In this document: one piece after another, positions 30,238 to 35,388 of the stretch | Numbering within the stretch: position 1 is the stretch's first letter | Layout of the letters: each line of letters begins with the position of its first letter | From: a bacterium | Lineage (GTDB): Bacteria; Myxococcota; UBA727; JAUIJE01 | Direction of reading: 5' to 3' | Assembly: GCA_030431455.1 (NCBI GenBank) | Contig: JAUIJE010000003.1 | Location: forward strand, 328,360 to 392,359 | DNA length: 64,000 nt | Made by a program: the position numbers and the translations under genes | Notes under the pieces: model-generated | What the model saw: the letters and a program-made list of their open reading frames with translations, nothing else | Databases searched by the model: none | What the model was told of the DNA's origin: nothing

Positions 30238-30678
30238 ATGGCGTTTTCGACGAAGAACAGCGGACCGATGAGCGACATCAACGTCACCCCGTTGGTGGAC
30301 GTGATGCTGGTGCTGTTGATCATTTTTATGGTCACCGCCCCGATGCTGACCCAGGGGGTCGAGGTCGAGCTCCCCGGCACCCCCGACGCCGAGCCCGTGC
30401 CCGGTGACGACGAGCGCTTGATCCTCACCGTGACCCAAGACGAGCGCGTGTACCTCGGCACCACCGAGATCCCCAAAGACCGGGTGAGCGACGTGCTGTC
30501 CAACAACGCGCGGCTGGCCACGGAAAAAGAGCTCTACCTGCACGCCGACCACCGGCTGCCCTACGGGGTGGTGGTGGCGGTGATGGCGGCGGCGAAAAAA
30601 GGCGGGGCCCAGTCGCTGGCCATGGTCACCGACCCGGTGGCGAAGACCCCGGCAGGTGCAAAGGCATTGGACGAATGA
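30238..30678 (+). CDS. tolR: ExbD/TolR-family protein
   Basis: A 146-residue ExbD/TolR protein: a short cytoplasmic N-terminus, then a transmembrane helix with the proton-path Asp (SDINVTPLVDVMLVLLIIFM). The periplasmic domain ends with the MTDPV-like segment LAMVTDPVAK. It normally works with TolQ/ExbB in a proton-driven motor. It overlaps the TolA/TonB-like gene by ATGA, and that gene overlaps tolB likewise, so the three are translationally coupled. No TolQ homologue is present in the window. Confidence 0.93.
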   Translation: MAFSTKNSGPMSDINVTPLVDVMLVLLIIFMVTAPMLTQGVEVELPGTPDAEPVPGDDERLILTVTQDERVYLGTTEIPKDRVSDVLSNNARLATEKELYLHADHRLPYGVVVAVMAAAKKGGAQSLAMVTDPVAKTPAGAKALDE

Positions 30679-31436
30679 GCGCCCTCGCGTCCCGCGCCGG
30701 CCAGAACCGCATCCTGATGATCTTCATCGGGACCAGCCTGGCGCTGCACGTGGCGTTCGTGGTGGTGGTGGCGGTGACGTTGTCCTGGGGGAAAAAGCCG
30801 CCCGCGCCGCCCCCGGCGATCAAGACGCGGCTGGTGAAGCTCGGCAAGCAGCGCGACGAAAAGCTCCTGCCCCGGATCGAAAAGAAGGCCCCGCCGCCGC
30901 CGTCGAAAAAGTCGCCCCCCGACGTCCAGAAAGACAAAAAGACCAAAGAGCCGACCCCGAAAAAAGAGCCAGACAAAGAGCCCACCCCGTCGGCGATGGA
31001 CGTGCTCAACAAGTTCAAAGAAAAGCACGCCGACGAGCAGGATCAGCCGAGCCTCTCGGACCTCATCGCCGAGCGCACCAAGACCACCGACGAGGGCCAC
31101 GAGCAAGGCAGCAAAATTGGCACCGAGGTGTCCGGCCGGCTGCGCGCGACCTACAACGACGAAATCCTCGCCAAGATGCAGAGCAACCTCGAGGTCCCCA
31201 ACACCCTCAGCGACGAAGAGCGCGTGCGCCTCAAGGCCCGCGTGTTCCTCCGCATCGACGGGGACGGCTCGCTGCTCTCATCGAAGGTGACCCGAAAAAG
31301 CGGCAACCCCACGTTCGACAACGCGGTGTTGGCCACAGTGAAAAAGAGTGCCCCCTTCTCTGCGCCGCCCCTGACCGAGCGCGATTTTTATCGCAACGGG
31401 GTGAGCGTCAACCTTTGTCCTTCGAGTTGTCGATGA
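30675..31436 (+). CDS. TolA/TonB-like energy transducer
   Basis: A 253-residue protein with one N-terminal transmembrane helix (ILMIFIGTSLALHVAFVVVV). A Lys/Pro/Asp-rich periplasm-spanning linker follows (~35-130). The C-terminal TonB/TolA-like domain (~160-253) contains VFLRIDGDGSLLSSKVTRKSGN and FDNAVLATVKKSAPF. Its position between tolR and tolB and the ATGA overlaps on both sides indicate the TolA role (linking inner and outer membrane), though its C-terminal fold reads as TonB-family. Confidence 0.88.
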   Translation: MSALASRAGQNRILMIFIGTSLALHVAFVVVVAVTLSWGKKPPAPPPAIKTRLVKLGKQRDEKLLPRIEKKAPPPPSKKSPPDVQKDKKTKEPTPKKEPDKEPTPSAMDVLNKFKEKHADEQDQPSLSDLIAERTKTTDEGHEQGSKIGTEVSGRLRATYNDEILAKMQSNLEVPNTLSDEERVRLKARVFLRIDGDGSLLSSKVTRKSGNPTFDNAVLATVKKSAPFSAPPLTERDFYRNGVSVNLCPSSCR

Positions 31437-32773
31437 CATTCGCCCCCCCTTCGCTTCGTGTCTTTGGCTTGGTGTCCGTGCTCTGCATCGGTGCCGCCGC
31501 GCCCTCCTTCGCCCAGGAGGACACCGCCACCGAGGACGGACCGCTCATCGGCGAGGTCGAGGGGGCCTCGTTCAAGCTGTTCCCGTTGGCCGTGCCCGAC
31601 ATCCGCGTCGCCGACAAGCGCTCCGACGAGCGCCGGCCCGCGGTGGGCATCACGTCGGTGCTGCGTCGTGACCTCGCCCTCACCGGGGTGTTCGAAGTCC
31701 TCAAGCCCCAGAGCTACCTCGACACCGACGGGCTGGCCAAGGGCGACGTGAAGTTCGACGACTGGCTCAACATCGGCGCCGACGGGGTGCTCAAGGCCCA
31801 GCTCACCGGCACCCCCGACAAGTTCACGGTGCAGGTCTACGCCTACCAGGTGGCGAGCACCGATCAGGTCCTGTCCCAGTCCTACGCCGGCACCAAGGAC
31901 ACCATCCGCGACGTCGCCCACCGCATCGCCGACGACGTGGTCAAGGCGTTCACCGGCTTGCCCGGGGTCGCGCGCACTCACATTGTGGCGGTCAAAAAGG
32001 TCGCCGGCTCCAAGCACGTGTTCATCATGGACGCCGACGGTGAGCGCCAACGCCAGCTCACCCGCGCGGGCACCCTCAACCTCTTGCCCTCCTGGGCCCC
32101 CGACGGCCGTTCGGTGCTGTTCACCAGCTACCGCTACGACAACCCCGACCTGTTCGAGATCTCCATCGCCGGCGGACCCGCGCGCCGGGTGTCGTCCCGG
32201 CCCGGCCTCAACACCGGTGGCCGCATCTCCCCCGACGGCCAGACCATCGCCCTGACCCTGTCCAAAGACGGCAACAGCGAAATCTACCTGCTCGACCGCC
32301 AAGGGGGCCTCAAAAAGCGCCTCACCAGCTCATGGGGCATCGACACCTCGCCCTACTTCTCCCCCGACGGCAGCAACATTGTGTTCGTGTCGTCGCGGGC
32401 CGGCAACCCCCACCTCTACCGCATGCCCGCGGCGGGGGGCAAAGCCGAGCGGTTGACCTTCCAGGGCAAGTACAACCAGACCCCGGCCTACAGCCCCAAA
32501 GGCAATAAGATTGCGTTCACCGCGCGCGACGAGTTCAACCGCTTCGACCTCTTCATCTACCACGTCGAGGACGGCAAGATCACGCGGGTCACCCAGGACC
32601 AAGGCAACAACGAAGACCCGTCCTTCGCCCCCAACGGCAACCTCATCACCTTCATCTCCGACCGCACCGGTTCGCGGCAAGTGTGGATCGGCACCCTCGA
32701 CGGCCGCTTCCAAGAACGCATCACCACCACCGGCCGCTACAGCTCCCCCAACTGGGGCCCGTTCGAGAAGTAG
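31433..32773 (+). CDS. tolB: Tol-Pal system protein TolB
   Basis: A 446-residue periplasmic TolB. The signal peptide ends in APSFAQ. The N-terminal domain (~30-165) has the TolB opening FKLFPLAVPDIRVADKRS. The C-terminal six-bladed propeller (~175-446) is built from WD40-like/DPP repeats such as SWAPDGRSVLFTSYR, YFSPDGSNIVFVSSR and AYSPKGNKIAFTAR. It starts inside the stop of the tolA-like gene. A pal gene would be expected next, but a small unrelated gene follows. Confidence 0.95.
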   Translation: MTFAPPSLRVFGLVSVLCIGAAAPSFAQEDTATEDGPLIGEVEGASFKLFPLAVPDIRVADKRSDERRPAVGITSVLRRDLALTGVFEVLKPQSYLDTDGLAKGDVKFDDWLNIGADGVLKAQLTGTPDKFTVQVYAYQVASTDQVLSQSYAGTKDTIRDVAHRIADDVVKAFTGLPGVARTHIVAVKKVAGSKHVFIMDADGERQRQLTRAGTLNLLPSWAPDGRSVLFTSYRYDNPDLFEISIAGGPARRVSSRPGLNTGGRISPDGQTIALTLSKDGNSEIYLLDRQGGLKKRLTSSWGIDTSPYFSPDGSNIVFVSSRAGNPHLYRMPAAGGKAERLTFQGKYNQTPAYSPKGNKIAFTARDEFNRFDLFIYHVEDGKITRVTQDQGNNEDPSFAPNGNLITFISDRTGSRQVWIGTLDGRFQERITTTGRYSSPNWGPFEK

Positions 32774-33162: not shown

Positions 33163-33980
33163 ACATTGTGCACGCCCCGCTTCTGAGCGCCCTGCTCGCC
33201 CTCCCCGTCGCCGCCCAAGGAGGCCCCGTGTCCCAGCCTGCATCCCCCCCGCCGGCGTCGGCGGACAAGCCCCACCAATGCAAACACGAGGGCCACACCC
33301 CCGACCAGTGCCCCCACAAAGGCCAAAAAGGGCACGACCACCACCACGGGGCGCACCACACCCCCGGGGCGATGCACAAGGAGGGCATGCACGCCCACCA
33401 CCGGTTCGACAACGCCGAGAAGTGGGCCGAGCACTTCGACGCCGCGGAGCGCGCGGCCTGGCAAAAGCCCGACGCGGTGATCGACCTGCTCGCCCTCTCG
33501 GACAATGCTCATGTGGCCGACATTGGCTCGGCCACCGGCTACTTCGCGGCCCGCATCGCCAAGCGGGTGCCCAATGGCCACGTGTGGGGGGTCGACATCG
33601 AACCCGACATGGTGCGCTACCTCAACGATCGCGCCCAAAAAGAAGGCCTCACCAACCTCGTCTCCACCCTGGGCGCGGCCGACAACCCCCAGCTCACCAA
33701 TCCCGTCGACGTGGTCTTGGTCGTCGACACCTACCACCACATCGCCGACCGCACCGCCTACTTTGAGCGCCTGCGCAACCAGATCAAACCCGGCGGGGTC
33801 GTGGCCATCGTCGACTTCAAGGACCACGCGACCCCGCACGGGCCGCCCCCCAAAATGCGCTTGAGCGCCCAGCAGGTCATCGACGAGCTCCAGCCCGCCG
33901 ACTACAGCCTCATGCTCCTCGACGAGACCACCTTGCCCGAGCAGTACGTGTTGGTGTTCAAGGCCAACGCCAAAAACTGA
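33159..33980 (+). CDS. Exported His-rich methyltransferase-like protein
   Basis: A 273-residue protein. It begins with a signal peptide (MNIVHAPLLSALLALPVAAQ), then a His/Lys/Cys-rich segment (~35-80, with HQCKHEGHTPDQCPHKG and HDHHHGAHH) that looks metal-binding. A class I methyltransferase fold follows: motif I VADIGSATGYFAARIA (~120), acidic strand-2 end VDIEPDM, motif IV VLVVDTYHHIAD. SAM is not expected in the periplasm, so either export does not happen or the domain binds something else. The ATG overlaps the preceding stop, and copy 33158 of the dispersed word spans it. Confidence 0.82.
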   Translation: MNIVHAPLLSALLALPVAAQGGPVSQPASPPPASADKPHQCKHEGHTPDQCPHKGQKGHDHHHGAHHTPGAMHKEGMHAHHRFDNAEKWAEHFDAAERAAWQKPDAVIDLLALSDNAHVADIGSATGYFAARIAKRVPNGHVWGVDIEPDMVRYLNDRAQKEGLTNLVSTLGAADNPQLTNPVDVVLVVDTYHHIADRTAYFERLRNQIKPGGVVAIVDFKDHATPHGPPPKMRLSAQQVIDELQPADYSLMLLDETTLPEQYVLVFKANAKN

Positions 33981-34033
33981 CGTTCACCGACTGGCCGCGG
34001 TTTGGTAGGGTGGCCGCACCGCAGGTTGCGGTT

Positions 34034-34074
34034 CCCGACGAGACGCGCCGTACCGGGTGAGGACAAGACGACGC
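34034..34074 (+). promoter_or_regulatory. Guanidine-III (ykkC-III) riboswitch
   Basis: The stretch CCCGACGAGACGCGCCGTAC (34034-34053), then CGGGTGA and GGACAAGACGACGC (to 34074), reproduces the conserved guanidine-III aptamer: an ACGAG loop, the CGCGCCGTAC-CGGG pairing and the GGACAAGACG pseudoknot strand. It ends 12 nt before the start codon of a SugE/Gdx exporter and only 2 nt before the GGAG ribosome site. Ligand binding therefore most likely frees the site and switches translation on. This is recalled family knowledge matched by eye, not a covariance search. Confidence 0.88.
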
Positions 34075-34086
34075 ACGGAGGCATTT

Positions 34087-34419
34087 ATGTCGTCGTGGCT
34101 GTTGGTCATTGGCGCGGGCGTTCTCGAGGTGGTGTGGGCCGCGGGCCTGCGCCAGTCGCGTGGCTTCACCCTTCCCGGCTGGACGGTGCTGACCGTCATC
34201 GGCATCGCCGCGAGCATGTGGATGCTCGCGCTCTCGGTGCGCACCCTGCCCGTCGGCACCGCCTACGCGGTGTGGGTGGGCGTGGGCGTGTGCGGCTCGG
34301 CCCTGTTTGGCGCGTGGGTCTTCGGCGAGCACGTGCCCCCGGTGCGGGTCCTGTTCTTGGTGATGCTCGTGGTCGCGATCATCGGGCTCAAGCTCACCGC
34401 CCATCCCGCCCCGGCCTGA
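34087..34419 (+). CDS. gdx: Guanidinium exporter, SMR family
   Basis: A 110-residue four-helix small multidrug resistance protein of the SugE/Gdx branch. The conserved Glu is in VLEVVWAAGLRQS (~13-25), and the GTAYAVWVGVG helix-2/3 signature and IGLKL ending are typical. Gdx proteins exchange guanidinium for protons across the inner membrane. The ATG follows GGAGG at suitable spacing, and the upstream guanidine-III riboswitch independently supports the substrate. Confidence 0.95.
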   Translation: MSSWLLVIGAGVLEVVWAAGLRQSRGFTLPGWTVLTVIGIAASMWMLALSVRTLPVGTAYAVWVGVGVCGSALFGAWVFGEHVPPVRVLFLVMLVVAIIGLKLTAHPAPA

Positions 34420-34428
34420 CCCCGCCGG

Positions 34429-35388
34429 TCACGCCTGGGCGTGCCAGGCCACGGTCTCGGCAAAACACGTCTCGAGATCGCGCGGGGTCCACCCCGCCAC
34501 GTCGCGCAGCCGTTGCCCGTTGCACTCGACGTAGGGCGCGGCGTCGCGCAGCTTGTCCCGGTTGAACGGGCTTTTGCCCCGGACCAAACACGTCACCGCC
34601 TCGAGGGTGGCGGCCAGCGTCCACAACGCGGGCCGGGGCACGGGCACCGCCCAGGGGTCGCGCCGGCCCATGGCCCGGGCGAAGCCGCGGGCGAGCTCGG
34701 GGATCGACGTGGACACCCCCTGCTCGACGAAGAACGCGTCCCCCGACGTGGTGGGGGCGTCGAGCAACGCCACGATGCCGTCCGCGGTGTCGCGCCCCGA
34801 ACAGATCGCCATCTTGCGCGGCCCCACGTCGAGGACCACCCCGCGGCGCGCCATCTCCAGCACCGGCACAATGCGACTGTCTCGCGGACCGAACAGGGCC
34901 GGGGGCCGCACGATCACGGTGTGCACTTGGTCTTTGTACCCGCGCACCACCGCCTCGGCCTTGTGTTTGGACAGCCCGTACCGGCTCGCGGGCCGGGGCG
35001 CGCTGTCGTCGTCGTGGGGCCGGCCCTTTTGGCTCGGGCCCACCGCGGCCAGCGACGAGACCAACACCGCGCGCGGGGTCTTTTGTTGGGCCATCGCGGC
35101 CCAGAGCTTTTCGGTGGGGGCGACGTTGAGCGCCTCCATCTCGGCCAGCGACGTGACCTTGCCCCCGCCCGCGCTGTGCACCACCGCGTCGATGCCGGCC
35201 AGGGCCGCGACGAGGTCGTCGTGGGGGGCGCGGAAGTCGACGACACGTTTTTCGAAGCCGTGCGCGTCGATGAAGGTGGTGTCCGAGCTTTGGCGAACGG
35301 CCGCCACCGGCTCGTGGCCAGCGGCCCGCAACGACTCCAACAGGTGAGAACCCAAAAACCCGCTCGCCCCGGTGACCAACACCCGCAT
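34429..35388 (-). CDS. NAD(P)-dependent epimerase/dehydratase
   Basis: A 319-residue extended short-chain dehydrogenase. The nucleotide-binding motif TGASGFLGSHL is at the N-terminus, and the catalytic YGLSKHKAE (YxxxK) at ~140. A VRPPALFGPRDSRIVPV segment typical of NAD-dependent epimerases and 3-beta-HSD-like enzymes is at ~165. The start was set at MRVLVTG; six codons upstream form an alternative. Substrate is not predictable. It is convergent with gdx, 9 bp apart. Confidence 0.88.
   Translation of the reverse strand: MRVLVTGASGFLGSHLLESLRAAGHEPVAAVRQSSDTTFIDAHGFEKRVVDFRAPHDDLVAALAGIDAVVHSAGGGKVTSLAEMEALNVAPTEKLWAAMAQQKTPRAVLVSSLAAVGPSQKGRPHDDDSAPRPASRYGLSKHKAEAVVRGYKDQVHTVIVRPPALFGPRDSRIVPVLEMARRGVVLDVGPRKMAICSGRDTADGIVALLDAPTTSGDAFFVEQGVSTSIPELARGFARAMGRRDPWAVPVPRPALWTLAATLEAVTCLVRGKSPFNRDKLRDAAPYVECNGQRLRDVAGWTPRDLETCFAETVAWHAQA

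Follow-up and report, generated by a model that had tools for sequence, protein, structure and literature searches.

A guanidine-III riboswitch beside a predicted Gdx-type exporter gene in a Myxococcota genome

Positions 34013–34077 on the forward strand of a 64,000-nucleotide stretch of bacterial DNA (the window) are very probably a guanidine-III riboswitch, which would raise expression of the adjoining Gdx-type SMR exporter (34087–34419) when it binds guanidinium. Guanidine is a toxic metabolite, and the guanidine-III RNA class senses it. The aptamer is identifiable as a member of that class, keeps its ligand contacts, carries a compensatory change in one pair of its pseudoknot and adjoins a Gdx-type gene, an arrangement that recurs in the phylum. 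Going by the literature on the class, free guanidinium would bind the pseudoknot (G7, G17 and C6) and lock it, and the locked aptamer would then raise expression of the SMR exporter at 34087–34419, by control of translation and/or of mRNA stability. The exporter would in turn pump guanidinium out in exchange for protons. The features on which the argument is built are as follows.

34013–34077, forward strand: guanidine-III riboswitch, full RF01763 model (56.4 bits, gathering score 36; model positions 1–67)
34018–34032, forward strand: five-pair hairpin ACCGC/GCGGU, which the Rfam model places 5′ of the crystallised region (alignment to model positions 6–20)
34034–34074, forward strand: 41-nt minimal aptamer, an H-type pseudoknot, counterpart of the crystallised Thermobifida fusca RNA (35 of 41 bases equal)
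34034–34057, forward strand: pseudoknot helix P1, 34034–34037 with 34054–34057, in which pair 3–22 is C–G and not G–C (listed pairs, counts over 69 leaders, helix as defined in PMC5696562)
34045–34074, forward strand: helix P2, 34045–34051 with 34068–34074, in which pair 15–38 is C·A (C–G in the crystal; listed pairs, 69 leaders)
34039–34050, forward strand: guanidine-contacting C6 (34039), G7 (34040) and G17 (34050), all conserved (contacts as described in PMC5696562)
34077–34081, forward strand: Shine-Dalgarno-like GGAGG, beginning 3 nt past the last aptamer nucleotide (from the sequence)
34075–34096, forward strand: predicted local hairpin in which the first codons pair with the GGAGG region (from folding, with or without the aptamer)
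34087–34419, forward strand: gene for a predicted Gdx-type SMR transporter, 110 aa (PF00893; 6wk5; NF008512 the top model but below its cut-off; residues)

The aptamer and its crystallised counterpart

A sequence-only reading of this DNA had proposed a guanidine-III riboswitch and suggested a search with the Rfam covariance model. That search gives a score well above the gathering score, with a match over the whole of RF01763 (1–67 of 67 positions) at an E-value of 5.4e-9 for the entire window, or 5.1e-11 when a 601-base stretch is searched alone. No other Rfam family reaches its threshold in the window, and guanidine-III is matched nowhere else in the genome (7,717,383 bases in 28 contigs). 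Together with the contact bases, the adjoining SMR gene and the recurrence in the phylum, the score bears out the proposed class. The interval first put forward, 34034–34419, starts at the base equivalent to nucleotide 1 of the crystallised 41-mer and ends with the stop codon of the SMR gene; to this the Rfam model adds the 5′ hairpin from 34013.

In the RNA crystallised from T. fusca, P1 is formed by nucleotides 1–4 with 21–24 and P2 by 12–18 with 35–41, and guanidine is contacted by G7, G17 and C6, as described in PMC5696562. The same paper gives a Kd of 60 micromolar for guanidine. We aligned the sequence printed in that paper by eye with 34034–34074. The two RNAs (the crystal structure being 5NWQ) share the 41-nt length, the pseudoknot with P2, the three contact nucleotides and the conserved ACGAG and GACAAGACG cores, and differ at six bases (3, 10, 11, 22, 26 and 38), so that the earlier description of the leader as matching the short aptamer almost base for base is a fair one. 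All four P1 pairs are standard, as are six of the seven P2 pairs, the remaining one being the C·A, and the contact bases C, G and G are present at 34039, 34040 and 34050.

Two of the departures could be compared across 69 leaders, comprising 64 from the phylum, four from plasmid records and one from a named Opitutaceae locus (two further leaders, L066 and L183, were left out). Positions 3 and 22 have changed together from G–C to C–G, a compensated pseudoknot pair that is found in only three of the leaders, namely this one and those of genomes G159 and G160. As the Rfam consensus line does not include the pseudoknot helix, the double change counts as evidence in addition to the score. Pair 15–38 is C·A in 64 of the leaders, including this one, U–A in two and C–G in three, and C·A is therefore the rule in the phylum rather than a defect of this copy; the pair may be an A+·C wobble.

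The exporter gene and guanidine metabolism in the genome

The open reading frame at 34087–34419 starts with ATG, encodes 110 residues and matches PF00893 (SMR) with 85.1 bits against a cut-off of 23.7; no further SMR match occurs in the genome. Its nearest solved structures are 6wk5 (E 1.1e-23) and 8vxu (3.1e-23), which we take to be entries of the Gdx-Clo guanidinium exporter, with EmrE-type chains at 5.7e-11 and weaker. According to PMC7695847, Gdx proteins conserve W16 where Qac proteins have Gly or Ala, and E13, S42 and W62 also lie in the site. The protein retains E14, W17, S43, Y60 and W63, equivalent to E13, W16, S42, Y59 and W62, in a full-length alignment with Gdx-Clo, which comes from another phylum. 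The top NCBIfam model is the SugE equivalog NF008512, with a score of 93.3 bits that falls under the 126-bit cut-off; as this cut-off is an NCBI naming threshold and not a definition of the subtype, we keep the assignment on the residues and relatives. By these sequence criteria the protein is a Gdx-type SMR transporter, as had been expected of the gene downstream.

The Trp-16 equivalent is present in 63 of 63 other riboswitch-linked SMR proteins of the phylum. Among 24 further SMR loci of the phylum that we judged not to be riboswitch-linked, 23 of which could be aligned, 11 have Trp, six Gly and six Ala.

The sequence-only reading had remarked that a carboxylase or urea-degradation gene is missing from the window, and for a carboxylase pathway the absence extends to the whole genome. 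There is no DUF1989 gene in the genome, and nothing in it exceeds the cut-off of the urea/guanidine carboxylase model (1303.85 bits), the best score being 556. The stretches below the cut-off are separate and partial, and we read them as biotin carboxylases and biotinyl domains. The 556-bit stretch itself (G000:C25:110758-112125) is biotin-carboxylase-like and contains one in-frame TGA. Two arginase-family genes resemble solved arginases or agmatinases most closely, with 7esr, presumably a guanidinase, scoring lower or absent. Additionally, no guanidine-I or guanidine-II riboswitches were found in the genome. The assembly is 96.87% complete, so the absence of guanidine genes is no proof, but export would seem to be the one guanidine defence that can be recognised in this genome.

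Recurrence in the phylum and beyond

The RNA is present in 61 of 195 genomes of the phylum, with 65 matches, 64 of them above the gathering score. When all 65 stretches were examined, an SMR-encoding match was found beside 64, and the one without (L066) is the match below threshold. Within the same order, none of the 15 other genomes has a guanidine-III RNA; an SMR match is present in three, and both of the proteins examined (G174 was left out) have Gly at position 17. The earlier statement that this lineage handles free guanidine thus stands in a narrow reading, for one genome with both RNA and exporter, and does not carry over to the rest of the order.

The closest 41-nt aptamers, one base different, are those of G159 and G160, which belong to another family, while the top-matching SMR protein (57.5%) comes from G161, of the same genus. 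In a tree of 73 SMR proteins, picked by hand from 172 rows with a match, the protein lies on a long, unresolved branch, a position as compatible with vertical descent as with horizontal transfer.

All 80 of the nearest named homologues were scanned for guanidine riboswitches, which lie just upstream of 36 of them, 35 being of class II and one of class III. Guanidine-II RNAs preceding sugE/gdx, found in Enterobacteriaceae and others, resemble the present case in the gene controlled, but their aptamer fold is unrelated. The myxobacteria were once placed within the delta-Proteobacteria, an older class. Weinberg et al. listed the motif for Actinobacteria and delta-Proteobacteria in 2010 (PMC2864571), and the present taxonomic range is therefore not new. 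Searches of viral contigs and phages yielded no copy of the aptamer.

Several aptamers with altered cores were seen in the course of these comparisons. A plasmid of Streptomyces sp. NBC_01001 (NZ_CP108712.1, about 547426–547488; L183) has a guanidine-III match of 42.5 bits, above threshold, which is followed not by an SMR gene but by one with the annotation Ohr family peroxiredoxin. Its conserved core is GCAC, against ACAA for the class, and the RNA may be a variant or relic. A further four aptamers, L065 (genome G147) and L062–L064 (G125, G137 and G136), precede SMR genes and have ACAA replaced by GCAC or GTAA; L062–L064 are each a second copy, the other aptamer of the genome having the higher score.

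Control of expression and competing readings

In the published view guanidine stabilises the fold and exposes the ribosome site, turning expression ON (PMC5696562), and a 2025 review states that guanidine-III also guards mRNA stability by obstructing RNase E, besides acting on translation (PMC12186494). The aptamer here does end right at the ribosome site, as the sequence-only reading had it, with the ATG at 34087 and GGAGG beginning 3 nt past its end, compared to the 16 nt given for the ribosome site of T. fusca in PMC5696562. Translational ON control, which the same reading had drawn from this position, fits the class literature and the site, but the support from folding is no better than that from shuffled controls. 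Holding the aptamer makes the start region cheaper to open, the predicted energy falling from 12.1 to 7.6 kcal/mol, a gain of 4.5, compared to a mean gain of 5.7 kcal/mol for shuffled aptamers, 69 of 100 of which gain at least as much, in what is a weak test as it contains neither pseudoknot nor ligand terms. The local hairpin between GGAGG and the first codons is predicted for the held and the free aptamer alike, and the stretch 34075–34110 folds with a z of −1.26, 23 of 200 shuffles being equally stable. Translational ON control of this gene is plausible from the literature and goes beyond what the sequence demonstrates.

The gain in opening energy is above the leader's own shuffled mean in 55 of the 69 leaders, averaging 6.6 against 4.5 kcal/mol, from 100 shuffles each for 13 leaders and 20 for the other 56, most of the leaders being close relatives; the present leader is not among the 55. 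One arrangement that might account for a switch is that the 3′ strand of P2, GACGACGC, acts as the switching strand in the phylum, with its complement shifting from clade to clade between the Shine-Dalgarno sequence, the nucleotides ahead of the start and the early codons. Without ligand the strand would hide the start by pairing to GUCGU, GCGUC or GUCGUC, at the ribosome site or in the first codons, and binding of guanidine would recapture it into P2. It complements GUCGUC at the start codon in this leader, and GUCGU after the Shine-Dalgarno sequence or GCGUC before the ATG in relatives. We consider this arrangement unlikely; the complementarity between the P2 3′ strand and the start region has p = 0.077 against dinucleotide shuffles in this leader, falls below 0.07 in four of the 69 (L019, L061, L182 and L065), and is not significant overall.

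A scan of 33800–34500 for sigma-70 promoters and terminators, other promoter types being outside its range, was empty, and thus no promoter or transcriptional expression platform was identified. Just upstream on the same strand is an open reading frame with a methyltransferase domain (33246–33980), preceded within the protein by a His-rich stretch. It ends 32 nt before the Rfam match, so co-transcription is possible. Further upstream, 30656–32773 (forward strand) is a long open reading frame whose second half appears from its translation to be TolB-like, with beta-propeller repeats.

Three points count against a riboswitch that raises expression of a Gdx-type exporter, namely the result of the folding test, the C·A pair at 15–38, which the Rfam model tolerates, and the missed SugE cut-off. 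The first of these bears on a reading in which a genuine, guanidine-binding aptamer acts mainly on mRNA stability, the bound pseudoknot blocking RNase E scanning and initiation not being switched directly. Such obstruction of RNase E is stated for the class in PMC12186494, and a start-site switch in this leader finds folding support no better than chance. However, both that review and PMC5696562 lead one to expect translational control as well, the ribosome site is only 3 nt from the aptamer, and a folding test that includes neither the pseudoknot nor the ligand is a weak one. We regard control mainly through mRNA stability as a minority possibility, though a serious one.

The other two points are those that would fit a relic or variant aptamer, insensitive to guanidine, in front of a Qac-type multidrug pump, since the leader departs from the crystal sequence at six positions, C·A among them, and the transporter misses the SugE cut-off. 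Yet every contact base is kept, the paired change at 3–22 preserves the pseudoknot, the C·A is seen in nearly all leaders, and W16 and other Gdx residues are retained in the transporter, which leaves a relic very improbable. More improbable still, to the point of being negligible, is a chance Rfam match in GC-rich sequence. The window is indeed GC-rich, and minimum-energy folding of the aptamer stretch as a single strand is no better than that of shuffles (z of 1.05 and 1.25), but ordinary folding cannot see a pseudoknot, and that it gives nothing for this aptamer was to be expected. The match is full-length, has an E-value that is very low, is single in 7.7 Mb and lies just upstream of the expected gene, and all but one of its 65 counterparts in the phylum lie beside an SMR gene.

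The pairing of a guanidine-III riboswitch with a Gdx-type exporter gene in this genome is a sound but ordinary case that leaves knowledge of the class unchanged. With it a sparsely sampled order gains a guanidine sensor and exporter that are well supported, and pair 3–22 provides a natural compensatory change in the pseudoknot.
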